From Saprospiraceae bacterium (GTDB taxonomy: Bacteria; Bacteroidota; Bacteroidia; Chitinophagales; Saprospiraceae), in contig JABAQQ010000036.1 in assembly GCA_019187225.1 (NCBI GenBank), positions 124,001-188,000 of the forward strand: a stretch of 64,000 bases of DNA, read 5' to 3'. Each line of letters starts with the position of its first letter. The stretch's first letter is position 1. Positions 14,204 to 56,187 of this stretch are shown here, piece by piece. The notes beneath the pieces are model-generated. The model did not search any database. It had not been told where the DNA came from and saw only the letters and a list, made by a program, of their open reading frames with translations. A program made the position numbers and the translations under genes.

Positions 14204-14232
14204 GTAGTCGGGGGAAATGACAAATCCTGACA
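14204..14232 (-). promoter_or_regulatory. ECF-type promoter element, copy 1
   Basis: Read on the minus strand: TGTCAGG (14232-14226), 14 nt, CCGACTAC (14211-14204). It points to the TonB receptor start at 14125, 78 nt further on. It is back-to-back with copy 2. Confidence 0.75.
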
Positions 14233-14266
14233 AGCCCTTCATCTTTTTTTCGGGCACTTGTCAGGA
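14225..14266. promoter_or_regulatory. 10-bp inverted repeat formed by two divergent -35 boxes
   Basis: tcctgacaag (14225-14234) and cttgtcagga (14257-14266) are perfect inverted arms. They are the -35 boxes of copies 1 and 2, so the palindrome is explained by a divergent promoter pair. Confidence 0.75.
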
Positions 14267-14287
14267 ATGGGATGCCGCCACGACTAT
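14259..14287 (+). promoter_or_regulatory. ECF-type promoter element, copy 2
   Basis: TGTCAGG (14259-14265), 14 nt, ACGACTAT (14280-14287). The DUF547 gene starts 45 nt downstream at 14333. Confidence 0.75.
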
Positions 14288-14332
14288 GGCGGCATCAACA
14301 GTAATTGTAAAAAATACTGCTCAACAAAAAAT

Positions 14333-15112
14333 ATGCATCTCCGAATTCTGATTTTAGCATTACTTACCCTTTCCACTACTGTATCCTACGGCTGTTCAGA
14401 TACTACTGCCGACAATCCTGTCAAAGATACCATCCCGGTCAGTCATGTCCTTTGGGACAGTCTGTTGCACCGCCATGTGAAAGCCGACGGCTTTGTGGAC
14501 TATAAGGGATTCATCCGCGACAGCGCGGAATTCAAGCAATATCTCATGCTGCTTTCTGCAGCCAACCCTGACACTGACCATTGGACGTGGGAAGAAAAAA
14601 TGGTATTTTGGATAAACGCCTATAATGCGTTTACCGTCAAGTTGGTCGTGGATGCCTATCCGGTTGCCTCCATTAAGGATATCAAAAGGGGTATCGCTTT
14701 TGTCAATTCTGTCTGGGATATCAAATTTATTCAAATCGGCGGCAAAAAATACGACCTCAACAACATCGAGCATGGCATCCTCCGGTCGAAATTCAAAGAT
14801 GCCCGCATCCATGCCGCCATCAATTGCGCCTCTTACTCTTGCCCGAAACTGCGAGATGAGGCTTACACTGCCGACAAATTGGATGCACAACTGACCGATG
14901 CGATGCGAGGTTTCGTAAATGATCCGCTGCGCAACCGGGTATCGGCTAAAAAAGCGGAAATCTCCGAGATTTTCAAATGGTTCAGGGGAGACTTCGTGCG
15001 GGATGCGGGTTCGATTCGGGAATATCTGAACCGGTATGCCGATGAAAAATTAGACTCCAACGGAAGAATCTCCCACTTGAACTACGATTGGCGCCTGAAC
15101 GAGGCCAAATAA
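14333..15112 (+). CDS. DUF547 domain lipoprotein
   Basis: 259 aa from the ATG at 14333. This start gives a proper lipoprotein signal (MHLRILILALLTLSTTVSYG followed by Cys21), which an upstream in-frame ATG at 14258 would not, and 14258 lies inside the promoter. DUF547 features include EEKMVFWINAYNAFTVKLV, YDLNNIEHGILRSKF and HAAINCASYSCPKLRDEAY, with conserved His, Asn and paired Cys of a papain-like fold. The biochemical role of the family is not established. It begins an operon with the FG-GAP and DUF3179 genes, all exported. A paralogue is at 25168, under the same promoter type. Confidence 0.88.
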   Translation: MHLRILILALLTLSTTVSYGCSDTTADNPVKDTIPVSHVLWDSLLHRHVKADGFVDYKGFIRDSAEFKQYLMLLSAANPDTDHWTWEEKMVFWINAYNAFTVKLVVDAYPVASIKDIKRGIAFVNSVWDIKFIQIGGKKYDLNNIEHGILRSKFKDARIHAAINCASYSCPKLRDEAYTADKLDAQLTDAMRGFVNDPLRNRVSAKKAEISEIFKWFRGDFVRDAGSIREYLNRYADEKLDSNGRISHLNYDWRLNEAK

Positions 15113-15130
15113 CAGAATAAAGCAAACGCT

Positions 15131-16753
15131 ATGCTGCTGAAAAAAATCCTGTTTTACGCCGGTACTTCCCTGTTTATTACGATTACGGCAATCCTTTTTT
15201 TGCTCTGGCGCGATACCCGGAACAAATACCCGGCGGTTGATTTATCCGGAATACAGATTCCTGAATTCAAAGAAGTTCCGACTACTTTTGTACACCATTA
15301 CGACGATGTTCGGTCACAACCAGTTATGGCAAGTGCCGTAGTAGATGTGGACGGCGACGGGAAAGATGAGATTTTTGTAGGCGGCGGTTTCGATCAGCCC
15401 GATGCTTTGTTTGCCTGCGAAGCCGGTGGATTCAAAGATATTTCCGTAGCATGGCTGCCAACAAAACCTGCCGGCCTGAGCACTTTCGGCGCAGCAACCG
15501 TAGATGCGGACCGGGATGGCGACGATGATATGTTCGTCGCCCGGGAAGGGGGCGTTTATTATTACCAAAACGAAGGTGGAAAATTTTCATCCGAAAAACT
15601 GGAAATGGAGTTCAACGACCAATCCGACCCGGTTTCGTTTGCCTTGGCCGATCTGAACGGCGATAGCATGGTGGATGTTTTCGTGTGTACCTATATCAAA
15701 AAAGCAAAAATGCAGGGGCAGACGATTTTTCGCGACTCGACCTATGGCTCTACCAGTCAATTATTTCTGAATCTCGGTAATAACCGGTTCAAAGACATTA
15801 CCCGCGAAGCTGGCCTGGAATATGTGCACAATACGTTTACCGCCGTATTTGTGGATGTGGACGACGACGGGCTGCTTGATTTGGTCGTGGCGCACGATAC
15901 CGGGCAGGCGCGTACCTGGCGCAACAAAGGCAATCGGCATTTCTCATACGTTGCCAACCCGACCTCTGCCTATTATGCCTATCCGATGGGTATCGGTTTA
16001 GGTGACTACAACAATGATTCCCGGCCTGATTTTTTCTTCTCCAATACGGGTTCCTCGACGCCAGACTTTGTGGTGCGCGGTGATCTGCAACCGGAGCAAC
16101 CTTTCAATCCGAAATGGATTTTACTCCAAAACGACGGCGGTTTTACCTTTACCGATGTAGCGGAGAAAACCAAAACGGCTGACTATGAATTTTCCTGGGG
16201 CGCTTTATTTCACGACTTCAATCTCGATGGAAGGCAAGACCTGGTTGTCGCGGAAAATTACGCCGGCTGGCCGGGCCATTGGCTGTTCAAACTGCCTTGT
16301 CGTTTTTTGCGCCAACTGCCCGACGGAACGTTCACCCCGGTGGAAGACAAAGCGCATTGTGAAAATCCGAACTATGCTTTCGCTCCGTTGAGCAGCGATT
16401 TTAATATGGATGGTTACCCTGACTTGGCGTATGCCAATCTGGGCGGGCCTTTGAAAATTTTCCTTTCTGTAAAACCCGTTTCAGGAGGAAACAACTGCCT
16501 GAAAGTACGGCTGCCCAATACACCTGAAAACCTTGGCGCTGTCGTGACGGTGGAAACCGCTTCGGGAAAAAAATTGACCGATTATTTCGTGGCGGGAGAG
16601 GGTCTTTGTTCCGATCAAAGCCGTGCGATTTCCTTCGGGCTAAGCGCGGAAACAAGTGCACGGGATGTCCGGGTAAGGCTACCTGGCGGTAAAATATTGC
16701 GTGCTGAAAATGTACACTCGGGAACTACGGTTCACTGGCGGGATTTGAAATAA
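15131..16753 (+). CDS. FG-GAP/VCBS repeat protein with ASPIC/UnbV C-terminal domain
   Basis: 540 aa, anchored by one N-terminal hydrophobic helix (residues 4-25). It carries about seven Asp-rich calcium-binding-like turns (DVDGDGKDEIFVGG, DADRDGDDDMFVA, DLNGDSMVDVFVC, DVDDDGLLDLVVA, DYNNDSRPDFFFS, DFNLDGRQDLVVA, DFNMDGYPDLAYA), expected to fold as a beta-propeller outside the cytoplasm. The C-terminus (NLGAVVTVETASGKKLTDYF to TTVHW) matches the ASPIC/UnbV domain. The partner or ligand is unknown. It lies 18 nt after the DUF547 gene and 16 nt before the DUF3179 gene, so it is part of their operon. Confidence 0.9.
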   Translation: MLLKKILFYAGTSLFITITAILFLLWRDTRNKYPAVDLSGIQIPEFKEVPTTFVHHYDDVRSQPVMASAVVDVDGDGKDEIFVGGGFDQPDALFACEAGGFKDISVAWLPTKPAGLSTFGAATVDADRDGDDDMFVAREGGVYYYQNEGGKFSSEKLEMEFNDQSDPVSFALADLNGDSMVDVFVCTYIKKAKMQGQTIFRDSTYGSTSQLFLNLGNNRFKDITREAGLEYVHNTFTAVFVDVDDDGLLDLVVAHDTGQARTWRNKGNRHFSYVANPTSAYYAYPMGIGLGDYNNDSRPDFFFSNTGSSTPDFVVRGDLQPEQPFNPKWILLQNDGGFTFTDVAEKTKTADYEFSWGALFHDFNLDGRQDLVVAENYAGWPGHWLFKLPCRFLRQLPDGTFTPVEDKAHCENPNYAFAPLSSDFNMDGYPDLAYANLGGPLKIFLSVKPVSGGNNCLKVRLPNTPENLGAVVTVETASGKKLTDYFVAGEGLCSDQSRAISFGLSAETSARDVRVRLPGGKILRAENVHSGTTVHWRDLK

Positions 16754-16769
16754 CTTCAATCGTCAACTT

Positions 16770-17813
16770 ATGAAAAAGCAATTACTGTTCGTCTCTGCCT
16801 GCATTGCCGTTTTTAGTTCATGCGTTAAGAAAGAAGTCGCCGAAATCAGCACAACGCAGGGATATAGCGCAGTGCAGGAATATAACTGGTTTGTGCCGAT
16901 GGACGATCTCATTATCCATGAAGGGGCGCACGATAGAATCCAATCCATCGATGTCCCCCTTTTTGTCAGTGCAATGGATGTCGCAATGGCCCCGGGCGAA
17001 GAAGTTTTTGTATACCAAGCGCAGGATCAGGTAAGGATTTACCCGGTGAATGTATTATGGTATCATGAAATTGTCAATGATCAATATGGCGATGATTTAT
17101 TTGGTGTGAGTTTCTGCCCGCTGACGGGTAGCGGGGTTGCCTGGGATCGGGATTATGATCTCCAGGGATCATCGTTCGGGGTGTCGGGGCATTTGTACAA
17201 CAACAACCTGGTGCTTTATGACAGGAAAACCGAAACCTATTGGTCGCAAATGACACTTCTTGGCATTAAAGGGCCGATGGGTGGGGACGCATTGCGCAAC
17301 GAGTATTTATTGTTGACGAATTACGGTACTGCCATATCGGCCTACCCTGATGCAAAAGTTCTCATCGATTCAACACACAGCACAACGTGCGACTCTATTT
17401 GCATTGCGCCAAATTCTGCTGCCGGAAACGGCGGATTTCCGGCCAATTCATTTTTTGGAGTGGTGCTTCGCGATAAAACCATGTTGTTCCGCGATGAGGC
17501 TTTATTATTTGATTATCAATTGTTTACGGATAAAACCCGGATTGTCCGCCACAATTTCAAAGGCGCCCAGTTGGCAGTTGTCGGGAATAAAGAATATGGA
17601 TTTGTAACGGCTTTTCTTGTGCCTGAAACGACAAAACTCCAGCCGTTGAATCATCAGTTGCCGGATATCATGTCCGATTCCGATGGCAACAGGTATGACC
17701 TGATGGGAAATGTTACGGCCGGACCTAAAGCAGGCCATCGCTTGAAATCTCCGTTTTGTTATTCGGCAAATGTTTTTGCGTGGGAGTTATATTTCCGTGT
17801 AACATATTATTAA
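16770..17813 (+). CDS. DUF3179 domain lipoprotein
   Basis: 347 aa with a lipoprotein signal (LLFVSACIAVFSSCVKKE). DUF3179 hallmarks are present: DQVRIYPVNVLWYHEIVND, VSFCPLTGSGVAWDRD with its cysteine, SFGVSGHLYNNNLVLYDR and TETYWSQM. The family is found in exported proteins of environmental bacteria and archaea, and its activity is unknown. It is third gene of the DUF547/FG-GAP operon. The convergent DUF2461 gene ends 2 nt after its stop. Confidence 0.9.
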   Translation: MKKQLLFVSACIAVFSSCVKKEVAEISTTQGYSAVQEYNWFVPMDDLIIHEGAHDRIQSIDVPLFVSAMDVAMAPGEEVFVYQAQDQVRIYPVNVLWYHEIVNDQYGDDLFGVSFCPLTGSGVAWDRDYDLQGSSFGVSGHLYNNNLVLYDRKTETYWSQMTLLGIKGPMGGDALRNEYLLLTNYGTAISAYPDAKVLIDSTHSTTCDSICIAPNSAAGNGGFPANSFFGVVLRDKTMLFRDEALLFDYQLFTDKTRIVRHNFKGAQLAVVGNKEYGFVTAFLVPETTKLQPLNHQLPDIMSDSDGNRYDLMGNVTAGPKAGHRLKSPFCYSANVFAWELYFRVTYY

Positions 17814-22235: not shown

Positions 22236-22264
22236 TGTCAGGAATTCTGCCTTCAGCCGACAAA
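22236..22264 (+). promoter_or_regulatory. ECF-type promoter element, copy 3
   Basis: TGTCAGG (22236-22242), 14 nt, CCGACAAA (22257-22264). The glycosyltransferase starts 115 nt downstream, with a terminator-like hairpin in between. Confidence 0.65.
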
Positions 22265-22314: not shown

Positions 22315-22346
22315 ACTTCCCGGAAATAATTCCGGGGAGTTTTTTG
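22315..22346 (+). terminator. terminator-like hairpin in the glycosyltransferase leader
   Basis: Arms ACTTCCCGGAA (22315-22325) and TTCCGGGGAGT (22330-22340), loop ATAA, followed by TTTTTTG. It lies between promoter copy 3 and the gene start at 22380. No plus-strand gene ends here, so it may act as an attenuator or end a short leader RNA. Confidence 0.6.
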
Positions 22347-22379
22347 TTTTTCAAGTCGCAAATGTTTGACGCCTTCAAA

Positions 22380-23072
22380 ATGAATATATCTGTCATTATC
22401 CCGGTTTTGAATGAATCCAGATTTATCGCCGACACGGTTCGACACCTTCGGACGTACGGCGGCGAGCGGGTTGTCGAAGTCCTTGTGGTAGATGGCGGCA
22501 GTACTGATGACACAGTCCGACTGGCTTTGGAAGCCGGTGCTACCGTCATCCATTCCCCGGAAAAAGGGCGTGGCGTTCAAATGAACTTTGGCGCCCGGCA
22601 ATGTACCGGGGACGTCCTGTACTTTGTTCATGCCGACACCACTCCACCCACCACGTTTACTGCCGATATTGAAAAGGCTGTAACGGAAGGTTGGCAGATG
22701 GGAAATTTCCAATATCGCTTCGACTCTCCAAGCCTGCTGCTTCGGTTCAATGCCATGTTTACCCGCTTCTCCTGGCTTTTTTGCCAGGGTGGCGACAAGA
22801 CTTTTTTTATCCGCCGGGAAGCATTTTTTGCATTGGGTGGATACGACCCGGAACATGTCGTTATGGAAGAATATGATTTTTTGCGACGCGCAAAAAGAGC
22901 CGGGTTCAAACTGGCGGTCTTGTCTTGTAAATGTGTGGTTTCCGCAAGAAAATATGAACGCAACAGCTGGCTGCGTGTCCAGATCGCCAACGTCGTTGTT
23001 TACAACCTTTGGGCTTGGAGGCTGGTGAAGCCAAAGGTATTAAAGGCAATATATTGGAAGATTCTATCCTGA
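22380..23072 (+). CDS. family 2 glycosyltransferase (TIGR04283-like)
   Basis: 230 aa from the ATG at 22380 (MNISVIIPVLNESRFI). Upstream in-frame ATGs would add a non-homologous tail. It has a GT-A fold with VLVVDGGSTDDTV (nucleotide-sugar binding), GRGVQMNFGARQCTGDVLYF then VHADT (the DXD-like site), and GGDKTFFIRREAFFALGGYD near the acceptor site. The pattern fits the TIGR04283 group, which has been associated with arsenosugar biosynthesis; no arsenic gene is nearby, so substrate is open. It is preceded by an ECF-type promoter and a hairpin. Confidence 0.88.
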   Translation: MNISVIIPVLNESRFIADTVRHLRTYGGERVVEVLVVDGGSTDDTVRLALEAGATVIHSPEKGRGVQMNFGARQCTGDVLYFVHADTTPPTTFTADIEKAVTEGWQMGNFQYRFDSPSLLLRFNAMFTRFSWLFCQGGDKTFFIRREAFFALGGYDPEHVVMEEYDFLRRAKRAGFKLAVLSCKCVVSARKYERNSWLRVQIANVVVYNLWAWRLVKPKVLKAIYWKILS

Positions 23073-23080
23073 AGGCCGTT

Positions 23081-23109
23081 TGTCAGGTTCGGCGGATATT
23101 TTCGACTAA
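23081..23109 (+). promoter_or_regulatory. ECF-type promoter element, copy 4
   Basis: TGTCAGG (23081-23087), 14 nt, TCGACTAA (23102-23109). The Crp-like reading frame begins at 23203. Confidence 0.7.
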
Positions 23110-23202: not shown

Positions 23203-23844
23203 ATGGATTACAAAAAGAAAAACAGGGTGACAGGCTTGTTGCGCCTGAACGAAGAATGCCTGGGTTTGTCCGATAATGACCTGGATGCATTTATTCCGAT
23301 TTCAAGATTCATCACTTATAAGTCCGGTCAGATAATATTCTCAGAATCACAGCCGGCTCACTCCTTTTTTATCTTGGGGAAAGGCCACGTTCGCATGAAT
23401 TTCAGCCGTCTCGAACCGGTAGACCTAAACCCAGGCCAAATATTCGGCGACTGGGCAATTATCAACGATACCGTGCGCTTAGCCACCGCGGTCGCGAAAT
23501 CCAATGCCACTGTTTTGGAAATTGATGCAGTCCGTTTTTTTGATCATAACTGGGTACTCCCGGCGCCTGTCACACATACGCACGAGAAACGGCTTCTTAC
23601 GTTCACAGAAAAACAAACACTTGACTCCGTTGTACGCCAATATCCTTCCCATCCGTACAGTTGGCGCCGACCGCGAGCAACTCATTGCGGTGTGTCGAAG
23701 TTTGCAGGCGCCGGAAACGGACCTTGCCCGTGTCCGCAGCCTGCCCGGCTTGCCTTATCTCGTGTTTCCCTTGCGGGTGGCGATGGTGCTTCAACCCGGG
23801 CGACCAGAATTTGTTTCTGCCGAAAAAATCCGAAAAAGCCTTGA
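23203..23844 (+). pseudogene. truncated Crp/Fnr-type cyclic-nucleotide-binding protein
   Basis: The first 140 or so residues are a Crp-type sensor: LGLSDNDLDAFIPISRFITY, HSFFILGKGHVRMNF and NPGQIFGDWAIINDT, then EIDAVRFF. The segment EKRLLTFTEKQTLDSVVRQY (about residues 127-147) matches the start of the C-terminal part of Bacteroidota Crp proteins. After it the sequence becomes low in sense (Arg/Pro/Cys-rich), and no helix-turn-helix follows. From about 23630 the coding signal moves to the frame of the M43 protease. This suggests a Crp gene cut off before its DNA-binding domain, or a frameshifted fusion. Confidence 0.6.
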
Positions 23845-24502
23845 TATCCTGAACAGCGGGCTGGCTGGGGCACACGTTCAATTTGTACTTGTGCAAACCG
23901 ATACTATTTATGCGAATGTCACCATTCCGGTATTGAAACAGGACGGATATGAGGCATACTACCGTTTTTCGGAGATGTACGATACAGGCGATACATGCAC
24001 GCTTTACCTGGTGGATAATGACGAACATCTTTGTGAAAACTATGCTTGTTCCCGTACGATGGGCTTTGCCAACATCCTGCAGACCAGCACCAATAATGTG
24101 GTGATGGATAAATTTTTCGTGGACGATCACAAAATTCTCGTGCATGAATTCGGACACTATTTCGGGCTGTATCACACGGCGGAAACATTTTTTGGCATCG
24201 AGACGGTCAGCGGTGAAAATTGCCGTACTGCCGGCGACCGCATTTGCGATACACCTGCCGACCCCGGTGAACTCTACAATGTTTATGTAAATTATTCCGG
24301 CTGCGAAATGAAGGGATTCAAAGAAGAGGAAACCGGATTGGAGTACCATCCCATTATCCAGAATTACATGTCGTATTATGCGCCTTGTTATATGCGGCAG
24401 TTCTCATTCACGGAAGGCCAGATGGATGTCGTATTCAGCGCAGCCACCCGCGTAAGGCACAATCAAATTGTGGCGTTGGCCACCGCTCCTGTTTTTAAGT
24501 AG
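23504..24502 (+). CDS. M43 (pappalysin-like) zinc metalloprotease, start uncertain
   Basis: 332 aa as an open frame from 23504. Protease-like sequence begins near GLPYLVFPLRVAMVL and SAEKIRKSLDILNSGLAGAH. The active site is HEFGHYFGLYHT (HExxHxxGxxH); the downstream CDTPADP and QNYMSYYAPC (Met-turn) complete the M43/metzincin pattern. The first 60 residues overlap the Crp frame and hold no proper signal peptide, although family members are normally secreted. Either the real 5' end was lost, or the protein is made through a frameshift from the Crp frame. A DinB gene follows 20 nt later. Confidence 0.8.
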   Translation: MPLFWKLMQSVFLIITGYSRRLSHIRTRNGFLRSQKNKHLTPLYANILPIRTVGADREQLIAVCRSLQAPETDLARVRSLPGLPYLVFPLRVAMVLQPGRPEFVSAEKIRKSLDILNSGLAGAHVQFVLVQTDTIYANVTIPVLKQDGYEAYYRFSEMYDTGDTCTLYLVDNDEHLCENYACSRTMGFANILQTSTNNVVMDKFFVDDHKILVHEFGHYFGLYHTAETFFGIETVSGENCRTAGDRICDTPADPGELYNVYVNYSGCEMKGFKEEETGLEYHPIIQNYMSYYAPCYMRQFSFTEGQMDVVFSAATRVRHNQIVALATAPVFK

Positions 24503-24522
24503 CAAATCAATATTTTTTCGTC

Positions 24523-25050
24523 ATGAAATACTCTTTTCAACCCGTTCTTTTTGCAATAACCCTGATGCTGCCTTGTAAATCCGGGGCTCAGGATTCCCTT
24601 TTCCTGAGAGAAACCCTGCAAAAATGGCAAAATGCGGCAGCCTACACCCTCGAAGTAGCGCGAGCGATGCCTGCTGAAAAATTTGGTTTTAAACCCACAG
24701 AGGAAGAGCGAACTTTTGGCAAGCAACTCGACCACATCGGAGAAAACATGACCTGGTTGGCGAGTGATTATCTTGTCGGGAAAAAATTTGAGCACCCGTT
24801 GATAGAGAAGCAGGAACGAACACCGGAGGAGACGATCGAGTTGCTTTCGGCTTCGCTTCTTTTTGCGCAGGAAGCTATTGCGAATACACCACCCGACTCG
24901 CTTGTTGTTGTGAAAAAATTCTTTGCCGGACCAATGAGCCGCCGGCAGGTCATCGCGCTTATGCACGATCACCATACCCACCATAGGGGACAGTTGATTG
25001 TTTACTTGCGGCTGAACGGGATCAAACCGCCAAAGTACCGGGGATGGTAA
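24523..25050 (+). CDS. DinB family protein, exported
   Basis: 175 aa. The N-terminal leader (MKYSFQPVLFAITLMLPCKSG then AQDS) suggests export, or a lipoprotein through Cys18. The DinB four-helix bundle follows, with FGKQLDHIGENMTWL and HDHHTHHRGQLIVYLRLNG carrying the three metal-binding histidines of the YfiT/DinB superfamily. Known members are metal-dependent thiol or hydrolytic enzymes; the substrate here is unknown. It sits 20 nt after the M43 protease gene and probably shares its transcript. Confidence 0.85.
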   Translation: MKYSFQPVLFAITLMLPCKSGAQDSLFLRETLQKWQNAAAYTLEVARAMPAEKFGFKPTEEERTFGKQLDHIGENMTWLASDYLVGKKFEHPLIEKQERTPEETIELLSASLLFAQEAIANTPPDSLVVVKKFFAGPMSRRQVIALMHDHHTHHRGQLIVYLRLNGIKPPKYRGW

Positions 25051-25094: not shown

Positions 25095-25123
25095 TGTCAG
25101 GATTCCAACTTCTTTCCGACTCT
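25095..25123 (+). promoter_or_regulatory. ECF-type promoter element, copy 5
   Basis: TGTCAGG (25095-25101), 14 nt, CCGACTCT (25116-25123). The second DUF547 gene starts 44 nt downstream, almost the same distance as at copy 2. Confidence 0.75.
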
Positions 25124-25167: not shown

Positions 25168-25860
25168 ATGAACATTGTTAAACTTTCAGAACAACTGCTT
25201 TTTCTTGTAAGAATGCAGGAACCTGCCACCGCGCTCGTCGAACAGTTGAAAGCGCTCCCTTTTGCCTCGCTCCGACTTGCTTTGGATACAGACGAACGAA
25301 AAAAGGCATTTTGGATCAACATTTACAATGCCTTTTTTCAATTGCTTCGTTCCGAAAAAAAGATTCCAAAACCGGAGATATACCGTAAAAAATCAATTGT
25401 AATCGCCGGAACAGCATTTAGTCTCGACGACATCGAGCACGGCATTCTGCGCCGTTATCGCACCAAATGGGCATTGGGTTATTTGCCCAATTTGCTTGCT
25501 TCACGCACTGTGAAAAGGCTGGCAGTATCCAGACTGGATTATCGCATACATTTTGCACTCAACTGTGGCGCGCGCAGCTGCCCACCTATTGCTTTCTATA
25601 CAGCAGATAAGATTGGTCAACAATTAGAACGGGCCGCACTTTCTTTCCTGGAGGCTGAAACATCAGTGAATACTGAGCGGAATGAAGTTCATGTATCCCG
25701 GCTCCTTCAGTGGTATATTGGAGATTTTGGCGGGAAAAGCGGCATCAGGCGGATACTGTATGACAAGCTTCACCTGGATACGAAAGGACTGCGGATTGTG
25801 TTCAACGAATATGATTGGACGGAGCAACTGGATAATTTTTCAGTTGTGTCAAACTCGTAA
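25168..25860 (+). CDS. DUF547 domain protein (second copy)
   Basis: 230 aa, without the lipoprotein signal of the paralogue at 14333, so probably cytoplasmic. It has the same family blocks: RKKAFWINIYNAFFQLL, FSLDDIEHGILRRYR and HFALNCGARSCPPIAFYTAD. The two paralogues share the promoter type and the promoter-to-start distance (44 and 45 nt), suggesting common regulation. Function unknown. The next gene has its own copy of the promoter. Confidence 0.88.
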   Translation: MNIVKLSEQLLFLVRMQEPATALVEQLKALPFASLRLALDTDERKKAFWINIYNAFFQLLRSEKKIPKPEIYRKKSIVIAGTAFSLDDIEHGILRRYRTKWALGYLPNLLASRTVKRLAVSRLDYRIHFALNCGARSCPPIAFYTADKIGQQLERAALSFLEAETSVNTERNEVHVSRLLQWYIGDFGGKSGIRRILYDKLHLDTKGLRIVFNEYDWTEQLDNFSVVSNS

Positions 25861-25877: not shown

Positions 25878-25906
25878 TGTCAGGTTATGTCGTCACCTCC
25901 GACTAT
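25878..25906 (+). promoter_or_regulatory. ECF-type promoter element, copy 6
   Basis: TGTCAGG (25878-25884), 14 nt, CCGACTAT (25899-25906). It lies 92 nt upstream of the OB-fold gene at 25999, first gene of a six-gene run. Confidence 0.75.
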
Positions 25907-25998: not shown

Positions 25999-26475
25999 AT
26001 GAACAGAAAAAAAGTATTCAAAAACTTAGTCATTCTGGGGGCTGCGGTGCTCTTGATCGGAGGCGGGTTCGGGCTGTACCTTTTTAACATGCCGCACCGC
26101 GATGTGCAGGCAACAAAGACTGATTTTACGCTGGAAAGCAGCCAACTCGTTGCCGAGTATTTAAACGCTGCGGAACAAGCCAATCTGAAATACCTGGACG
26201 AAGAAGGCGACTCCAAGGTACTGGCTGTCAGCGGTGTTGTGTCCGCTATAACGGACGATTTGAACAACCAAAAAGTCGTGTTGCTCAAAAACACGGGCGA
26301 TAAGGCGGGCGTCAGTTGCACGTTTATGGAATCCACCAATGCCCATGCTGAACAATTGGCGCCGGGTCAAACGGTAACCATTAAAGGAGTTATTCGTTCG
26401 GGCGCCGGCTACGATGAAGACCTGGGTCTGTACGAAGATGTCATTTTGGAAAAGTGCGACATCATCAATAACTGA
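25999..26475 (+). CDS. OB-fold (tRNA_anti-like) membrane-anchored protein
   Basis: 158 aa. One N-terminal membrane helix (LVILGAAVLLIGGGFGLYLF) anchors a domain outside the cytoplasm. The C-terminal 100 residues (KVLAVSGVVSAITDDLNNQK; GVSCTFMESTNAHAEQLAPG; QTVTIKGVIRSGAGYDEDLG) follow the tRNA_anti-like OB-fold seen in many Bacteroidota lipoproteins. Two cysteines (Cys113 region and Cys near the end) are present. Role unknown. It begins the operon OB-fold, YceI, DUF4833, DinB, DUF6695, controlled by promoter copy 6. Confidence 0.8.
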   Translation: MNRKKVFKNLVILGAAVLLIGGGFGLYLFNMPHRDVQATKTDFTLESSQLVAEYLNAAEQANLKYLDEEGDSKVLAVSGVVSAITDDLNNQKVVLLKNTGDKAGVSCTFMESTNAHAEQLAPGQTVTIKGVIRSGAGYDEDLGLYEDVILEKCDIINN

Positions 26476-26523
26476 TCAACATCAATTTTTTCAATAATTT
26501 TCAATCATTTAATATTCAAAAAT

Positions 26524-27090
26524 ATGAAAAATACTGCATTAATTCTGATTGCCTTCGGGGTGTTCACGCTACTCTCATTCAAAACCATTGCGACAAAGTA
26601 TGTCAGCAAAAACGCCCATATCAGCTTCTTTTCGCACACAGTAGCAGAAGATATCACTGCCAACAATTACAAGGTGGTAAGCACCCTGAATACCGAAACC
26701 GGCGAAGTTGTATTTTCTGTGCCCATGCAAAGCTTCGAGTTTGAAAAAGCCCAGATGCAGAAACACTTCAATGGAAAGGATTTTCTTGATACTCAAACCT
26801 TTCCCAAAGCCAAATTCACCGGGACAATTACAAATTTATCAGCCGTTAACTTTGGGAAGGACGGCACGTACGACGCAACGGTCAAAGGCGAGTTAACAAT
26901 CAAAGGAACAACGAAACCGATGAACGAAAAAGGCACTGTCACGGTAAAAGGCAACCAGATTGAAGTCAAAACAAAGTTGAAGGTCGTGCTGGCTGACTAC
27001 GGCGTCACGTTTGCAAAAGGGAAACCCTCCACGAACGTTGCAAAAGAAGTCGAAGTTACTTTAAATGCGGTTTACCAACCGGAGGGTTGA
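26524..27090 (+). CDS. YceI family protein
   Basis: 188 aa with a signal peptide (LILIAFGVFTLLSFKTIA). YceI proteins are lipocalin-like periplasmic binders of isoprenoid-type molecules. Typical blocks are AHISFFSHTVAEDITANNYK, GKDFLDTQTFPKAKFTGTIT and GELTIKGTTKPMNEKGTV. Located 48 nt after the OB-fold gene and 30 nt before DUF4833, it is part of the same operon. In other bacteria YceI genes are often induced by envelope, pH or oxidative stress, which would suit control by an ECF sigma factor. Confidence 0.92.
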   Translation: MKNTALILIAFGVFTLLSFKTIATKYVSKNAHISFFSHTVAEDITANNYKVVSTLNTETGEVVFSVPMQSFEFEKAQMQKHFNGKDFLDTQTFPKAKFTGTITNLSAVNFGKDGTYDATVKGELTIKGTTKPMNEKGTVTVKGNQIEVKTKLKVVLADYGVTFAKGKPSTNVAKEVEVTLNAVYQPEG

Positions 27091-27120
27091 GTTCTGAACA
27101 CTTGTAAATTTACTCCACGC

Positions 27121-27651
27121 ATGAAACTGTTCTTGCTTCGCTCACTTGCTCTATGCTCAAGCGTACTGTTACTATTTGCTTTCACGTATGCAGGCATCGT
27201 AAAAGAGCCTGTTTCCCAACCGCTGTTTAAAATAGCGCGAAGCAAAGATGCGAACGAGATTTTTTACGCGGCAAGGGTCACCGATAAACATCAACTGGAT
27301 AATTCCAGTCCGGTTGATGTTTATTGGATAAAACACACTGATGGAAACGTCCGGGAGCCGCTTACCTGGATTCAACGCAAATACGCCTACGGACTTAAAT
27401 TTCTCCGGATAAAGGAATCGGAAGCAGTATTTCAGTTTGTCTCCTATGATAAGAGAGATTTCGTTTTAAAAAAGGATCAGACAGGTGAATTCAAAGTTTT
27501 TACGAATTCACAAGGCAAAGAGGTGCAGGTCAAGAGAATATTCATCCAAATTGACGGCGGCACATTCTGGCTTCCCAAAATATCGAGCGTAGAACTACAT
27601 GCAAAAGATGCTAAAACAGGGAATACCATTCTTGAAACAATAAATCCTTGA
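27121..27651 (+). CDS. DUF4833 domain protein, exported
   Basis: 176 aa with an N-terminal signal (SLALCSSVLLLFAFTYAG). The sequence FKIARSKDANEIFYAARVTD, PVDVYWIKHTDGNVREPLTW and QVKRIFIQIDGGTFWLPKIS fits DUF4833, small secreted beta-rich proteins of Bacteroidota with no known activity. It lies between the YceI and DinB genes in the operon of promoter copy 6; the DinB start follows after 4 nt. Confidence 0.75.
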   Translation: MKLFLLRSLALCSSVLLLFAFTYAGIVKEPVSQPLFKIARSKDANEIFYAARVTDKHQLDNSSPVDVYWIKHTDGNVREPLTWIQRKYAYGLKFLRIKESEAVFQFVSYDKRDFVLKKDQTGEFKVFTNSQGKEVQVKRIFIQIDGGTFWLPKISSVELHAKDAKTGNTILETINP

Positions 27652-27655
27652 CGGA

Positions 27656-28156
27656 ATGACGCAGTACTGCAAGCAAAATCTGTTTGAATTGAAGGAACTA
27701 TTGCAAAATCTGTCCGAAGAACAGTATTCAAGGCCTTCTGAGATATTATCCGGCGCCTCCATCGGACAGCACTTCCGGCACATACTGGAATTTTACTACT
27801 GCTTGATTGAAGCGCTTGAAACCGGCATCGTCAACTACGACAACCGGAAGAGAAACAAACAAATAGAAACGAATCCGTCCGCTGCGAAAACAGCGATAGA
27901 CAACATCATATCCGTTTTGGATAGCGGTATGGAATGTACCGATCTGACTTTGCAGGGTAGTTTCGGCGTCATGGGCGATCAAGTCGTTTCGATCCGTTCT
28001 TCCGTTTACCGGGAACTCGCATATAACCTGGAGCACAGCATTCACCACCAGGCGTTGATAAAAGTCGGGCTAAAAGAACAAGGAATGGAGTGCCTGATCG
28101 GCCCCGGTTTTGGAGTAGCCCCGGCAACGGTCCGGTTCAAACAGCTCGTACAATGA
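27656..28156 (+). CDS. DinB family protein
   Basis: 166 aa, cytoplasmic. It has the metal-binding bundle with SIGQHFRHILEFYYCLIEAL (first histidines) and ELAYNLEHSIHHQALIKVGL (last histidines). It differs from the exported DinB at 24523 in having no leader. A thiol-transfer or hydrolase activity is typical for the superfamily; the substrate is unknown. The stop overlaps the ATG of the DUF6695 gene (ATGA), so translation is coupled. Confidence 0.85.
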   Translation: MTQYCKQNLFELKELLQNLSEEQYSRPSEILSGASIGQHFRHILEFYYCLIEALETGIVNYDNRKRNKQIETNPSAAKTAIDNIISVLDSGMECTDLTLQGSFGVMGDQVVSIRSSVYRELAYNLEHSIHHQALIKVGLKEQGMECLIGPGFGVAPATVRFKQLVQ

Positions 28157-28815
28157 AGAACCATACGCCTGGCGGCTTTGCTATTGCCCTGGCCTGGCCC
28201 GAAACACTTTGCAAAAAATCTGGCGCATGGTACGATGTGCCCATGCAATGGCTTGGTTTATGCCAAAACCACTATTATAAGGTAGGGCATGCGGCTACGG
28301 TGTTGGTTGATCCGGCAAACGGCGCGTGTTATTATTTCGACTTTGGCCGTTACCATGCGCCATTCGGGTGCGGAAGGGTACGCGACCAGGAGACAGACCA
28401 CGATTTGAAGATTTTTACAAAGGCTGCCTTCGACAAGGACTGGAATATCGAAAACATAGACGCAATACTGACGGAATTAATCCAAAATCCCTCCTGTCAT
28501 GGAACCGGGCTACTGTTCGCCTCTTATTGCCCGATCAACTTCAAAAAAGCATTTGCCAAAGCGAAAAAGTTGCAGGAGAATAGCCCCTGGAAATACGGGT
28601 CATTTGTCTGGAATGGTACCAATTGCTCGCGCTTTGTACGTACGGTTATTCTGGCTGGAATGCCCAAATGGAATTTCAGCATAAAATTAGGCCTGCCGCC
28701 GACGGTATCCCCTACGCCACTCGGGAACGTTCGCGCCCTGGGCCGCATATTTTTGAAAACGTATGAATATCAAAGAAACCCTGCCTGCGCCCAAGCGGCC
28801 CTCCTGTATACCTGA
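28153..28815 (+). CDS. DUF6695-like protein, N-terminal part
   Basis: 220 aa from the ATG at 28153, overlapping the DinB stop. Characteristic blocks are GFAIALAWPETLCKKSGAWY, YKVGHAATVLVDPANGACYY, FDFGRYHAPFGCGRVRDQET and FVWNGTNCSRFVRTVILAGM. The Cys, His and Asn pattern could form an NlpC/P60-like thiol active site (my inference). From about LGRIFLKTYEYQRN the frame runs into the next ORF, which seems to be the C-terminal part of the same family, in the +1 frame. The gene may be split by a frameshift near 28750. Confidence 0.65.
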   Translation: MKNHTPGGFAIALAWPETLCKKSGAWYDVPMQWLGLCQNHYYKVGHAATVLVDPANGACYYFDFGRYHAPFGCGRVRDQETDHDLKIFTKAAFDKDWNIENIDAILTELIQNPSCHGTGLLFASYCPINFKKAFAKAKKLQENSPWKYGSFVWNGTNCSRFVRTVILAGMPKWNFSIKLGLPPTVSPTPLGNVRALGRIFLKTYEYQRNPACAQAALLYT

Positions 28816-29095: not shown

Positions 29096-29124
29096 TGTCA
29101 GGTTTTATTTTCCGACGCGACTAT
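29096..29124 (+). promoter_or_regulatory. ECF-type promoter element, copy 7 (orphan)
   Basis: TGTCAGG (29096-29102), 14 nt, GCGACTAT (29117-29124). No plus-strand gene follows. A transcript would run antisense into the 3' end of the marR gene (29157-29771). Confidence 0.6.
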
Positions 29125-29771: not shown

Positions 29772-29784
29772 AGGCACAAAAAAT

Positions 29785-31833: not shown

Positions 31834-31847
31834 TTTCCTGAACTTTT

Positions 31848-32438: not shown

Positions 32439-32447
32439 ATTTCGGTC

Positions 32448-39085: not shown

Positions 39086-39162
39086 AATCCGTTCCAAAAG
39101 GTCAGTTGCGTTCTATTTCGTGGGAGACAAGTGGGCGAACATTGCCGCAAAATGTGAATCCG

Positions 39163-39615
39163 ATGAAATGGATAACTCGTGAGCGACCGAAAATCGACCG
39201 TATCGCCTGCCCCTGGCTCATCAAAAACTTCGTGGATAGTGCTGCGGAATTCATTTACGTGCCCAAAGAGCAGGTATTTGAAAAGGCAACGGAACTCGAT
39301 GCCATCCCCTACGACATCCCCGGCGCTGAATACTCACACGAAGGGGAGTTTTGTACCTTTGATTTTATAATAAAAAAACACGGGCTGGACGACCCCGCCC
39401 TGCTCCAACTCGCCGCCATTATTCGGGGCGCCGACACCAACCGCTTCGAACTTTCGCCGCAGTCGGCAGGGCTTTGGGCGATTTCGGCGGGGCTTTCCCA
39501 CAATTTCAAGGACGACCACAAAATGCTGGCAGTCGGGATGAACATCTACGATGCGCTGTACAGTTGGGCGAAGTACGTTCAGTCGGAAAAACACACTTGG
39601 AATCCGGTTTTATGA
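39163..39615 (+). CDS. ChrB-type chromate-resistance domain protein
   Basis: 150 aa from the ATG at 39163 (MKWITRERPKIDRIACPWLI). It is a close paralogue of the sensor half of the previous gene, with FDFIIKKHGLDDPALLQLAA and IIRGADTNRFELSPQSAGLW, and no DNA-binding domain. It could act as the chromate-binding or reducing component while the fused version regulates. Its stop overlaps the start of the outer-membrane protein gene (ATGA). Confidence 0.88.
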   Translation: MKWITRERPKIDRIACPWLIKNFVDSAAEFIYVPKEQVFEKATELDAIPYDIPGAEYSHEGEFCTFDFIIKKHGLDDPALLQLAAIIRGADTNRFELSPQSAGLWAISAGLSHNFKDDHKMLAVGMNIYDALYSWAKYVQSEKHTWNPVL

Positions 39616-42029: not shown

Positions 42030-42032
42030 ATC

Positions 42033-43744: not shown

Positions 43745-45051
43745 ATCCTCCTACCTTTCACGAAGCCCTCCGTTTTTGGCTCAAACTCGGCTTCATCAGT
43801 TTCGGCGGTCCTGCAGGGCAAATTGCCATCATGCACGAGTACCTCGTGGACAAAAAGAAGTGGATGAGCGACAGCAAGTTCCTTCATGCGCTGAACTACT
43901 GCATGATTCTGCCGGGACCAGAAGCGCAGCAACTTGCCATTTACATCGGATGGCTCTTGCACGGCACTTGGGGCGGCTTGGCGGCGGGGGTGCTTTTTGT
44001 GCTGCCGTCCATGTTCATTTTGCTGGGCTTGAGCCTTGTTTACGTGACTTTCGGCAACGTGCCCTGGGTCTATGCCCTGTTCGACGGGCTAAAACCGGCG
44101 GTCATTGCCATCGTGATTTTGGCTTTGATAAAAATCGGCAAAAAATCGCTGGCGACGCCGTTTCATTACCTCGTGGCAGCGGCGGCTTTTTGCTGCATTT
44201 TTTTCCTGAACGTGCCTTTCCCGCTCATCATCCTCGGCGCCATCATCACGGCGGCGCTAGCACGGCGTTTTTTGCCCCGGTTGTTTCAACAAAACCAAAA
44301 AAAGACGGAAAAACAGGACGCGGACGAAGCGGGCTATTTTTTGAACAAAAACTCGGTCTTGCCCGGCACGGCCTTCAACGCCGCCCGGCTGGCAAGGCAG
44401 GTGCTGACGGCTGCGGCGCTGTGGGTGCTGCCTTTCGTACTGTTTTATTTTTTCACCAAAGATTTTACTTTTTGGAAAACGCTGTCGCTGTTTTTCACGC
44501 AGGCGGCATTGGTAACTTTCGGCGGGGCGTATGCCGTGCTGCCCTACGTGGCGCAGGTCAGCGTGGAGAAACTGAACTGGTTGAGCAGCCTGCAAATGGT
44601 GGACGGGCTGGCTTTGGGCGAAACGACGCCCGGTCCGCTCATCATGGTGCTGGTGTTCGTGGGCTACATGGCGGGCTACAACCACTTCGGCGGCTCGCTC
44701 TGGATGGGCACGCTGGGCTTGGTGGCGACCACGTTTTTTACTTTTCTGCCCTGCTTTCTGTTCATCTTTGCCGGTGCGCCGATTATCGAAAAAACGCAGG
44801 AAGACAGGCAGGTCAAAGAAGTGCTCGGATTGGTGACGGCGGCGGCGGTGGGCGTGGTGCTGAACCTGACCATTTACCTCGGCAAGGCGGTCATTTTCCC
44901 GAATGAACTGTTATGGGCAGCCACGGACTGGGTGGCGTTGGGCTGGGTCGCCGTGTCGTTCCTGGCGATGTACCGCTATAAGGTGGGCATGATGACGTGG
45001 ATTGGAGTGAGCGCCTTGTTCGGACTGGTTGAATATTTCATTTTTCATTAA
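43741..45051 (+). CDS. chrA: chromate efflux transporter ChrA (two-domain, long type)
   Basis: 436 aa, the length of two-domain CHR transporters. The first CHR domain begins FHEALRFWLKLGFISFGGPA with GQIAIMHEYLVDKKKW and LPGPEAQQLAIYIGWLLHGT. The second has AALVTFGGAYAVLPYVAQVS and LGETTPGPLIMVLVFVGYMA. Each supplies about five to six membrane helices. It exports chromate from the cytoplasm. The gene follows the YncE gene with a 4-nt overlap and is followed 10 nt later by an Fe/Mn superoxide dismutase gene, the neighbour known as ChrC in other chromate loci. Confidence 0.92.
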   Translation: MNPPTFHEALRFWLKLGFISFGGPAGQIAIMHEYLVDKKKWMSDSKFLHALNYCMILPGPEAQQLAIYIGWLLHGTWGGLAAGVLFVLPSMFILLGLSLVYVTFGNVPWVYALFDGLKPAVIAIVILALIKIGKKSLATPFHYLVAAAAFCCIFFLNVPFPLIILGAIITAALARRFLPRLFQQNQKKTEKQDADEAGYFLNKNSVLPGTAFNAARLARQVLTAAALWVLPFVLFYFFTKDFTFWKTLSLFFTQAALVTFGGAYAVLPYVAQVSVEKLNWLSSLQMVDGLALGETTPGPLIMVLVFVGYMAGYNHFGGSLWMGTLGLVATTFFTFLPCFLFIFAGAPIIEKTQEDRQVKEVLGLVTAAAVGVVLNLTIYLGKAVIFPNELLWAATDWVALGWVAVSFLAMYRYKVGMMTWIGVSALFGLVEYFIFH

Positions 45052-53382: not shown

Positions 53383-54714
53383 CTATTTCACTTGTACCGC
53401 GCGCAAATCTTCCGCCCGTTCGTCGATATCCGCCGTTGCTCCCTCCAGGCGCAGCACTCCGCGCGGACAAACTGCCGAACAAATGCCGCAACCGACACAG
53501 GAGGCCCGCACAACATCCTGCCCTTTTTGGGCATAAGCGCGCACATCGATGCCCATTTCGCAGTACGTGGAGCAGTTGCCGCAGGAGATGCATTGACCGC
53601 CGTTCACCGTAATCCGAAATTTGGACTTTGTCTTTTGCCATATTCCCAACCATGCAGCCATCGGGCAACCGAAACGGCACCAAACACGGCTGCCCAACAG
53701 GGGATAAAACCCCACGCCCACGACGCCGGAAAATGCCGAGCCTATCAGGAAAGAGTAGGTTTGGTAAAAAGCCTGGGAATATTCCTGCAAAATGCCCCGG
53801 CCTGTGGCAACATTGGCCCAGAGCAGTGCCGTCATCAGGACAACGAATACCAGCACACTATGAATCATCCACCGCTCCAACTTCCAGGCTTTCAGGCTTT
53901 TATCAGACAGATGGCGGAAAGGATCGCCGGCCGTTTCCGCCAAGCCGCCGCAGCCGCACACCCAGGAACAATACCAGCGTTTGCCGAAAAAGTAAGTCAG
54001 GATGGGCGTCCCTATAAAAAACATGGTCAATCCGAAAAAGAAAAAGAACGTCCCCAACCAAGAGCCGGCATACCCTTCATGCGCCATAGGCGTACCCTGG
54101 TAGTACGAAAGCGGCCAGAAATAGGTGAAATAAATCTCAGGCTGTTGGAGCCGCATGAGCAAACCGGGAATGAGGAAGGCAAAACCCAACTGGAAAAACA
54201 TCACCGAAAAGCTGCGCAACCTTTGGTAAGGATTGTGCCGGTATTTGTAAATGAATTTGATCCCCATCAACAAAACGGCAGCCGTGTAGAGCGTCCCGTA
54301 AACAAACCATTGATTGGCTGCGGTGCCACGAAGCAGATGGCTGAGCGGGTCAAATAACTGAATCAGCCCGGTCAAATATTCGGGAAACCAATACAAACAC
54401 ACATAAAATCCGGTGATGACCACCCCCACCAGCCAGCCCCATACGCCCCGGGCAGTCAGGCTGCTGAACCAGGCGCCGTTATTTTTAATGCCTTCCGGCC
54501 GGCGGAGGTATTCTTCCCGCACAAAAACCACGATGCCCGCAGTAGTCAAACCCAGGGCTGAAAGAAAAACAGGAACGGGCGAAATGGCTTTGCCGGCTGC
54601 CCAGGTCACTAAAAGCAACAAAATACCCATCCCGGAAAGTGCGACTGCGACTTTCTGTTTGCCGGTTGTGAGCGCGGGAATGGGTGTGGCGATGGAAAGA
54701 GATTCGTTGCGCAT
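53383..54714 (-). CDS. membrane-bound 4Fe-4S polyferredoxin (NapH/NosR-like)
   Basis: 443 aa. It has several membrane helices and a CxxxC...CP motif of the NapH/NosR group (KRWYCSWVCGCGG; SRVWCRFGCPMAAW). Two ferredoxin clusters lie at the C-terminus: CISCGNCSTYCEMGI and CVGCGICSAVCPRGVL. It should carry electrons between a quinol or cytoplasmic donor and a periplasmic acceptor. It follows the FAD oxidoreductase gene by 54 nt on the same strand, so the two probably form one electron-transfer unit. The acceptor is unknown. Confidence 0.9.
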   Translation of the reverse strand: MRNESLSIATPIPALTTGKQKVAVALSGMGILLLLVTWAAGKAISPVPVFLSALGLTTAGIVVFVREEYLRRPEGIKNNGAWFSSLTARGVWGWLVGVVITGFYVCLYWFPEYLTGLIQLFDPLSHLLRGTAANQWFVYGTLYTAAVLLMGIKFIYKYRHNPYQRLRSFSVMFFQLGFAFLIPGLLMRLQQPEIYFTYFWPLSYYQGTPMAHEGYAGSWLGTFFFFFGLTMFFIGTPILTYFFGKRWYCSWVCGCGGLAETAGDPFRHLSDKSLKAWKLERWMIHSVLVFVVLMTALLWANVATGRGILQEYSQAFYQTYSFLIGSAFSGVVGVGFYPLLGSRVWCRFGCPMAAWLGIWQKTKSKFRITVNGGQCISCGNCSTYCEMGIDVRAYAQKGQDVVRASCVGCGICSAVCPRGVLRLEGATADIDERAEDLRAVQVK

Positions 54715-54768
54715 TGGATTTTGTTAAAAACAGCGAAAATTAAAGGAGGTTTGAGTCGAGCGCAGCAA

Positions 54769-56103
54769 TTAACTCAGAAAATCGAGTACGGCGGAAAGTC
54801 CGCGTTTTTGTCGCAGTTGTATGTTTTTCCCGGTTTGTTTGTTGTACGCGGCCACTATATACTGCTCATATTGCTCAAAAAATTCCGGGTCGAAATTGGC
54901 CATCCCAAGGCTTTGTAAAACCGCCTCGATGTGCGCGCCATGTCGCAGCCATTTTTCGCACACTTCATGGCGGTAGCGGATGCCCATCAGGTTAAAACCG
55001 GCGATCTTTCCAGAACTTTTTTCATACACCAACCGGATACTTTTCTTCCCGGACGGATGCTCCCAATAAATGCCGGCCTGATGCTCCGGCAAAACCGGGC
55101 GTACATCGCCATACACCTGGTACTCGATGTCGAAAAACTTGGCTGAATTGAACCAGATGCCCGGGTCATAAGCAGTGGTTTTTTTGCATATATTGTGCGC
55201 CGCGATTTCACCCATCATGCGCCCGGTGTACCAAATCGCTTCGATGGGACGCCGTCCAGGCCCTGGTTCCCGCAATTCGGCGCAATCTCCTATTGCATAC
55301 ACATCGGGGATATTCGTTTGTAAATACTGATCTACCAGAATACCGCGGTTTGTTTCCAACGCAGTGTTTTTTAAAAAACTGATATTGGGGCTCACCCCAA
55401 CCGTCAACCCCACAAACCCGCATCCTATTTCTTCACCCGACGAAGTGACAACCGCGCGGGCTTTCCCGTTTGCATCCGGGAGCACTTCCTTTAACTCTGT
55501 CGACAACCGCAGATCAACCCCATGCTCGCAGATATGGCGACCAATCATCACAGATTCCTCCGGGGGCAGCACGAGGTCCCAAAAGTTGTTCTCCCGCACC
55601 AGAAATGTAACCGGTATATGGCGGGAGTGAAACATCTCAGCCATCTCAACGCCGATAAGCCCGCCGCCGACAATGACCGCCCGTTCGAGCCCGGCGCTGT
55701 GGCGCTCCATGGCCTCCAAGTCCTGCCAATGATACAGGCCGTGCACGCCGTCCAGTTCTTGCCCCGGCCATCCGAATTTGTTGGAACGCGACCCAAGTGC
55801 CAATACCAATTTATCGTAGGGCACAACCTTGCCCGCGCCGGTGTGCAGTTGCTTTTGGGAAAAGTCTATCCGCTCCACCTGAGCGCGCAGCAATTCGATG
55901 CGGTTTTTAGCCCAAAACCATTGCTCGTAAGGATGGATGTCCGCAGGGCGCATATGACCCATGTAAACGTACATCAATGCCGTCCGGCTGAAAAAATAAT
56001 CCGTCTCCGCTGAAATGACCGTGATATCGTGGTTGCTGAGTTTGCGGGCAAAACGGGCGGCGGTAATCCCGGAAATGCCGTTGCCGAGGATGACTATTTT
56101 CAT
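54769..56103 (-). CDS. FAD-dependent pyridine-nucleotide oxidoreductase
   Basis: 444 aa. N-terminal FAD site MKIVILGNGISGITAARFAR (GxGxxG), NAD(P)H site LERAVIVGGGLIGVEMAEMF, and the second FAD motif NIPDVYAIGDCAELREPG. There is no catalytic Cys pair, so it is not a disulfide reductase; it resembles NADH dehydrogenase/ferredoxin-reductase-like proteins. The C-terminal 100 residues form the dimer domain. It is probably the electron-input partner of the polyferredoxin downstream. A TGTCAGG-N14-ACGACTAC promoter lies 56 nt upstream, so the pair may belong to the same regulon as the TonB/ABC operon. Confidence 0.9.
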   Translation of the reverse strand: MKIVILGNGISGITAARFARKLSNHDITVISAETDYFFSRTALMYVYMGHMRPADIHPYEQWFWAKNRIELLRAQVERIDFSQKQLHTGAGKVVPYDKLVLALGSRSNKFGWPGQELDGVHGLYHWQDLEAMERHSAGLERAVIVGGGLIGVEMAEMFHSRHIPVTFLVRENNFWDLVLPPEESVMIGRHICEHGVDLRLSTELKEVLPDANGKARAVVTSSGEEIGCGFVGLTVGVSPNISFLKNTALETNRGILVDQYLQTNIPDVYAIGDCAELREPGPGRRPIEAIWYTGRMMGEIAAHNICKKTTAYDPGIWFNSAKFFDIEYQVYGDVRPVLPEHQAGIYWEHPSGKKSIRLVYEKSSGKIAGFNLMGIRYRHEVCEKWLRHGAHIEAVLQSLGMANFDPEFFEQYEQYIVAAYNKQTGKNIQLRQKRGLSAVLDFLS

Positions 56104-56158
56104 AAAAGTTGGAATTGTTACCTGAAGAGCGCAGCATAAACATTAAAAGCGGCGCTGT

Positions 56159-56187
56159 GTAGTCGTCGTTGTGTGGATTTCCTGACA
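56159..56187 (-). promoter_or_regulatory. ECF-type promoter element, copy 8
   Basis: Minus-strand TGTCAGG (56187-56181), 14 nt, ACGACTAC (56166-56159). The FAD oxidoreductase ATG is at 56103. Apart from this site, the 488-nt gap (56104-56591) shows no convincing gene; a 60-codon minus frame at 56329-56511 lacks support. Confidence 0.7.

Follow-up and report, generated by a model that had tools for sequence, protein, structure and literature searches.

A candidate sigma factor promoter embedded in the helix-turn-helix codons of the sigma gene itself

Eight exact copies of a two-box element, TGTCAGG-N15-CGAC, lie in a 64,000-nucleotide stretch of the genome of a Saprospiraceae bacterium (GenBank assembly GCA_019187225.1, contig JABAQQ010000036.1, positions 124,001 to 188,000; "the window" throughout, with positions counted from its first letter). 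The same window holds the gene for an extracytoplasmic function (ECF) sigma factor at 3826..4437 (+), here called sigma 3826, and, directly downstream, a candidate zinc anti-sigma gene at 4451..4741 (+). We propose, with a probability of roughly 0.8, that the element is the promoter of sigma 3826 and that, across the family, a further copy embedded in the sigma gene drives the anti-sigma gene as negative feedback. The original prediction, which described a candidate ECF regulon behind the eight sites, missed the copy inside the sigma gene, the most interesting one; a promoter within the codons of its own sigma gene is, as far as sequence can indicate, what would be new here.

A pattern search finds the eight copies where they had been placed, TGTCAGG and CGAC both exact, within 42 kb of the window, where 0 are expected (100 shuffles); TGTCAGG alone occurs 13 times versus 5.0 expected. 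The spacer is constant at 8/8 sites, and comes to 15 nt when the variable base of nCGAC is added to the predicted 14 nt. The genome as a whole, 7,183,558 bases, contains 10 exact matches, eight of which are in the window, and a single match to the reversed-pattern control. The other two matches look like chance: one, on contig C4, lies inside a 334-amino-acid (aa) open reading frame (ORF) on the opposite strand, and the other, on contig C11, belongs to a repeat present in three near-copies, two of which read CGGC instead. All eight sites in the window are intergenic, as had been claimed, including the one at 14259, which is crossed by a frame starting at TTG 14258; this is a mechanical ORF, and the DUF547 protein encoded there probably starts at ATG 14333. 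Seven sites are correctly oriented towards a plausible start codon, which we place 47-118 nt downstream rather than the 44-115 nt first given, a figure that depends on the start chosen.

Sequence comparison makes the ECF gene at 3826 the very probable source of the sigma factor that reads these sites: its relatives in other genomes adjoin both intergenic copies of the boxes and homologues of the regulon proteins. Sigma 3826 (203 aa) matches Pfam Sigma70_r2 at 48.2 bits (cut-off 24) and Sigma70_r4_2 at 37.4 bits (cut-off 25.7), region 4 ending at residue 191, and it has no other domain, the composition (regions 2 and 4 alone) that defines an ECF sigma factor. It falls below the cut-off of TIGR02943, Sig70_famx1 (142.1 vs 162.2 bits). 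In 60 related genomes, including its own and 36 of the same genus, the exact motif occurs 0-2 times per genome, its own genome apart. At E <= 1e-20, 48 of 298 genomes in the order contain a match to the sigma factor, and its own genome is the sole representative of its genus there; at E <= 1e-30, 56 of 395 genomes in the phylum do. The gene had been named as the first candidate; the family now gives that choice its main support.

We collected 131 distinct sigma genes of the family, named loci included, of which 130 have a recognisable helix, together with 1.66 Mb of surrounding DNA; some of the 130 loci are near relatives, so their intergenic sites are not all independent. The pattern TGT[AC]AGG-N15-C[GT][AT]C occurs around these genes at 87 intergenic positions (79 of them no more than 200 nt upstream of an ORF), at 3 positions in other ORFs, and at 78 positions inside the sigma gene itself, while the reversed pattern yields 5 matches, all inside ORFs. 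With spacers of 12, 13, 16, 17 or 18 nt the intergenic counts drop to 0-10, and with 14 nt the count is 26. A 14-nt spacer separates the intergenic boxes at 32 sites, mostly at Bacteroidales loci (L162-L241), whereas the embedded copy keeps 15 nt, because the codons dictate its spacing. Family loci also hold homologues of regulon proteins from the window: OB-fold (12), YceI (10), the two DUF547 proteins (10 and 9), DUF3179 (9), DUF4833 (8), DinB (8), TseH-like (3), the glycosyltransferase (3), the FAD oxidoreductase (2), the polyferredoxin (2), the TonB receptor (1) and the solute-binding protein (1). The proposal of an ECF-type promoter with a local regulon is thus well supported, both by family-wide box pairs near the sigma gene and by these homologues. 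Within the genus, the regulon's DUF4833 copy is peculiar to its own genome (among 24 same-genus genomes, 7 carry nothing closer than a 30-39% relative), and, since homologues of the regulon recur at family loci, the sigma factor and its regulon look like a module acquired together.

The first relatives that we examined carried the exact motif inside the sigma gene, always over the same codons: TGT-CAG-Gnn specifies Cys-Gln-Glu in the first region-4.2 helix, and the recognition helix begins with nCG-ACT. The embedded copy is intact in 78 of the 130 sigma genes, carries one mismatch in 39 and at least two in the other 13; culturable relatives with an intact copy include Hydrotalea flava, Pedobacter steynii, Chitinophaga rupis and Cytophaga aurantiaca. 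There is no circularity in this comparison, as the motif was defined from the intergenic sites of the window before the sigma genes were examined. In seven proteobacterial homologues, a small sample of the 60 listed PLSDB matches, no embedded copy was found, and the arrangement may therefore be a feature of Bacteroidota; a proteobacterial origin of the embedded promoter was discarded for the same absence. Among these PLSDB loci, the sigma homologues on Enterobacter and Pantoea plasmids (L300, L301) adjoin DoxX, DNA-binding-domain and DUF692 genes, and one record filed as a plasmid (L299, NZ_CP119142.1, Neisseria gonorrhoeae) measures 2.17 Mb, a size that suggests a chromosome.

The anti-sigma candidate in the window is a 96-aa protein with the pattern C-x26-H-x3-C-x2-C, and its residues C9, H36, C40 and C43 are invariant across 26 aligned relatives. 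It scores 18.5 bits against zf-HC2 (curated cut-off 22.2) and 49.0 against NF052368 (cut-off 50); with scores below their cut-offs, the anti-sigma is not filed under NF052368, nor the sigma factor under TIGR02943. At 123 of 130 loci the ORF after the sigma gene encodes a zinc anti-sigma, its start lying a median of 80 nt past the embedded -10 box (quartiles 76 and 85).

These relations suggest the following circuit. Sigma 3826 would be held off by the zinc anti-sigma until a signal disables the latter, whereupon the sigma factor would transcribe the operons behind the eight sites. Free sigma would also read the promoter copy in its own region-4.2 helix-turn-helix codons, giving an anti-sigma transcript from about 80 nt upstream of that gene, so that anti-sigma is made along with the regulon and the sigma factor shuts itself off. 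The sigma gene would usually lack a promoter of the same kind in front. Consistent with this, none of the 112 loci whose embedded copy has 0-1 mismatch shows the motif (N14-15) shortly before the sigma gene, and 7 of 13 loci with a decayed embedded copy do. We take the mutual exclusion of embedded and upstream sites as suggestive only: its Fisher P is 9e-9, but the tree has 5 losses and 3 gains, with which significance is out of reach; two of nine upstream matches (L124 at -936 and L237 at -775) were also set aside as too distant to be promoters of the sigma gene. At five loci with a decayed embedded copy (L257, L258, L262, L263 and L268), TGTAAGG-N15-CGAC stands both upstream and downstream of the sigma gene and before a divergent gene.

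The embedded site could also be real and yet not promote the anti-sigma gene, acting instead as a holding site or road-block that lowers transcription of the sigma gene, or serving genes further downstream. Three intact embedded copies precede genes other than an adjacent zinc anti-sigma, and many downstream genes have an intergenic site of their own besides, as this alternative would have it. Orientation and distance nonetheless fit an anti-sigma promoter at 123 of 130 loci, the median of 80 nt falling within the 47-118 nt of the window's operons, and we regard the alternative as unlikely.

Codon choice under the embedded boxes is constrained beyond what the protein needs. Compared with counts expected from each locus's own codon usage, Cys170 is encoded by TGT at 123 of 128 loci (64.4 expected), Gln171 by CAG at 85 of 85 (40.0) and Lys171, where it replaces glutamine, by AAG at 24 of 31 (8.7); nCG occupies position 177 at 79 of 114 loci (23.5) and [AT]CT position 178 at 79 of 124 (23.5). 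Control codons are near expectation, both in the spacer (Glu172 GAA, 86/106 vs 78.9) and beyond (Asn179 AAT, 90/130 vs 78.0), and elsewhere in the same sigma genes glutamine is CAG at 515 of 1070 positions and cysteine TGT at 170 of 331. The bias persists among 95 representatives that share less than 70% identity and in 60 AT-rich loci (CAG 37/37 vs 14.1 expected). A scan of the gene column by column gives G = 134-175 for the four box columns, which rank 1, 3, 4 and 5 of all tested; the median column has 14, the 95th percentile 46, and the spacer columns 172-176 have 4-36. The second rank belongs to Ser70, through an AGY-versus-TCN serine effect that also touches position 178; with TCN serines only, nCT at 178 still reaches 82/129 (highest other column 45%), and nCG at 177 exceeds a highest other column of 30%. 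A maximum-likelihood tree inferred after masking the helix places 5 synonymous changes at Cys170, versus 34 at Cys144 and 41 at Cys194, and 0 at Gln171, versus 22, 21 and 27 at Gln53, Gln182 and Gln190.

Such numbers bear on a simpler account, that sigma 3826 reads the eight sites as promoters, the embedded sequence being a mere by-product of conserved protein sequence and codon usage. The residues over the site, C-[QK]-E-L-x4-[PSTA]-[ST]-N, are indeed highly conserved in themselves, and a -35-like TGTAAG, with no -10 box, occurs in a Halomonas homologue. Synonymous choice, however, is fixed precisely where the boxes lie while same-gene and same-tree controls vary freely, the spacer codons have little excess, and the seven proteobacterial homologues, with a similar helix, do without these codons. 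Nor did our peptide patterns create the bias, as the same codons recur at 50 loci that were found by whole-protein search alone (TGT 45/50, CAG 10/10, AAG 23/30, nCG 37/45, [AT]CT 28/45). The by-product account is strongly disfavoured. It is instead fairly probable that, across Bacteroidota, the DNA encoding the sigma factor's helix-turn-helix is also its own promoter and drives the anti-sigma alone, a built-in shut-off with no positive loop; on this view the promoter's needs fixed the codons and probably also the residues (Cys170, Gln/Lys171, [PSTA]177 and [TS]178).

Several observations weigh against the embedded promoter and its circuit, or against sigma 3826 as owner of the motif. The window's own embedded copy, at 4333..4358 (+) and 92 nt from the anti-sigma ATG at 4451, reads TGTCAGA...CGAC, with one mismatch in the -35 box; being weaker than the consensus, it leaves this genome with a weaker case than the family. 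At 6 of 130 loci no zinc anti-sigma gene adjoins the sigma gene, and in 3 of these the embedded copy is intact. Corrected for ancestry, a switch between the embedded and the upstream site has 1.5 independent pairs in its favour and 0 against, which is not significant. Covariation between embedded and intergenic boxes fares no better: the fourth -35 base agrees in 45 of 51 loci, yet tree pairs give 0.4 versus 0.3, and we dropped this agreement as evidence because ancestry explains it; at the second -10 base there is no covariation (P 0.71). Seven of the window's proteins (the permease, hypothetical 7404, radical SAM, Crp-like, M43, MarR and protoglobin proteins) have no homologue at the other loci. 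Finally, the genome-wide scan proposed with the original prediction supports the exact motif but not relaxed forms: allowing one mismatch and CGWC gives 166 matches in this genome versus 185 for the reversed control, so that only the exact motif is informative. The looser pattern gives 117 matches versus about 159 for the reversed control in 30 genomes with the sigma gene, and 61 versus about 214 in 30 genomes without it; the signal is confined to the sigma locus.

The genome has 39 Pfam matches to sigma region 2, and another of its sigma factors might read the eight sites. Only one match to the sigma 3826 family is reported in the genome, however, and it lies at the motif locus, while the association seen in other genomes is with this same family, which makes a different reader very improbable. 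It is scarcely credible that the motif is instead the operator of a dimeric regulator such as the Crp-like protein at 23203, even though GTC and GAC, 22 bp apart, make up a weak inverted repeat, the regulon includes a cNMP-binding protein and Crp-like proteins are 4 of 75 downstream proteins elsewhere, for the boxes match a published sigma-E promoter, the motif accompanies the sigma gene, the window's Crp-like protein has no homologue at other loci, and the orientation of the motif relative to genes is fixed.

The promoter class proposed for sigma 3826 is already known. The sigma-E promoter of Neisseria meningitidis consists of a -35 box GTMAGBWTT and a -10 box CGTCTAAH 12-13 nt apart (Hopman et al. 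2010, PMC2893595), and these boxes superpose on TGT[AC]AGG[AT][AT]-...-CG[AT]C-T, the third -10 base being A or T in the present family. As with Neisseria sigma-E and MseR, a soluble zinc anti-sigma gene lies directly downstream and an A/T-rich stretch lies upstream of the -35 box, so that both the promoter and the gene order of the sigma-E type are found in the window and in the family. The Neisseria rpoE cluster is described as an operon autoregulated from an upstream promoter, with a regulon of msrAB and the operon itself (PMC2893595); the gonococcal sigma homologue that we examined, unlike the family here, has no embedded promoter in its helix codons. RpoE2 (with HrsE) of Haemophilus influenzae, which its authors place in ECF group 13, is likewise an ECF factor with a small zinc anti-sigma; it responds to hypochlorite, controls its own gene very weakly, and has a regulon of msrAB and a transporter (PMC7907618), and an embedded promoter goes unmentioned in the available part of that account. 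Sigma 3826 would be a Bacteroidota relative of this Neisseria sigma-E and Haemophilus RpoE2 type.

ECF41 promoters (TGTCACA-n16-CGTC) also start with TGTCA, but they differ in the end of the -35 box and in spacing, and ECF41 factors have a C-terminal extension and control COE genes, their targets being neighbours only (PMC3426412). We set aside membership in that group, given the different motif, the absence of COE genes and a 203-aa protein whose region 4 ends at 191, with no such extension. The anti-sigma shares H-x3-C-x2-C, soluble size and an ECF neighbour with class I zinc anti-sigma proteins; a survey reports such a gene next to 6% of Bacteroidetes ECFs (PMC7406223), versus 123 of 130 loci here. 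In the open-access literature searched, we found no paper on a promoter in the helix codons of a sigma gene or on this Bacteroidota regulon; the internal promoters treated in the parts consulted of PMC3498285 and PMC3467454 concern other things.

The genes behind the sites are varied. Site 1, at 14207..14232 (-), lies 81 nt from ATG 14125 of a putative operon at 4758..14125 (-) for a TonB-dependent receptor, a solute-binding protein, a permease, two unknown proteins, an ABC ATPase and a radical SAM protein. Site 2, at 14259..14284 (+), lies 48 nt from ATG 14333 of DUF547, FG-GAP/ASPIC and DUF3179 genes (14333..17813, +). Site 3, at 22236..22261 (+), precedes by 82-118 nt, depending on the start codon, a glycosyltransferase gene (22344..23072, +) that scores 212.2 bits against TIGR04283 (cut-off 182), a family named for arsenosugar biosynthesis, a member of which therefore sits inside the regulon. 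Site 4, at 23081..23106 (+), lies 96 nt from ATG 23203 of genes for a cNMP-binding (Crp-like) regulator, an M43 peptidase-like protein and DinB (23203..25050, +); site 5, at 25095..25120 (+), 47 nt from ATG 25168 of a second DUF547 gene (25168..25860, +); site 6, at 25878..25903 (+), 95 nt from ATG 25999 of genes for OB-fold, YceI, DUF4833, DinB and TseH-like proteins (25999..28815, +); and site 8, at 56162..56187 (-), 58 nt from ATG 56103 of a FAD/NAD oxidoreductase and NapH-like polyferredoxin pair (53383..56103, -). Site 7, at 29096..29121 (+), is the one of the eight with no sense gene to drive: downstream on the same strand there is no convincing gene, and the site is directed at the MarR gene (29157-29777, -; Pfam) from its 3´ side, so that its RNA would be antisense to that gene. 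A protoglobin gene (30035-30613, -) adjoins the MarR gene. Past the regulon, 31420-45051, with a ferritin-like protein, an outer-membrane efflux/HlyD pair and a chromate transporter, is a stress or metal island outside the control of the TGTCAGG motif. A scan of 140 kb of the contig added one exact match to a relaxed form, TGTCAGG-N15-CGTC (G000:C9:190486-190511; window coordinate 66486), intergenic, 128 nt before an ORF and 2.5 kb past the end of the window.

These families had been said to have no known shared role, a point that the sigma family partly answers. Behind its intergenic sites elsewhere lie 86 downstream frames, 75 of which were scanned (omitted were 7 sigma genes, 3 L197 near-duplicates and 1 frame truncated at the end of a contig); the 25 of 54 Pfam families listed include Thioredoxin (8), DUF1223 (5), Redoxin (4), cNMP_binding (4), cytochrome P460 (4) and the methionine sulfoxide reductase families PMSR (1) and SelR (1). 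Thioredoxin- and redoxin-type members, together with an anti-sigma that would bind zinc through cysteines, suggest thiol or oxidant stress as the signal, a guess from gene content.

For this organism, the circuit would tie about 20 poorly understood genes (DUF547, DUF4833, YceI, OB-fold, TseH-like and TIGR04283 among them) to one switch. Predictions of ECF promoters commonly start from motifs found in front of autoregulated sigma genes, a stated limitation of the approach (PMC8103513). An autoregulatory site inside the sigma gene escapes such a method, searches of intergenic DNA alone would miss it, and embedded sites may help explain why so few promoters are known for Bacteroidetes ECFs. If the reading is right, one stretch of DNA encodes the DNA-binding element of a protein and is also the site to which that protein binds, with codon choice as the visible footprint.

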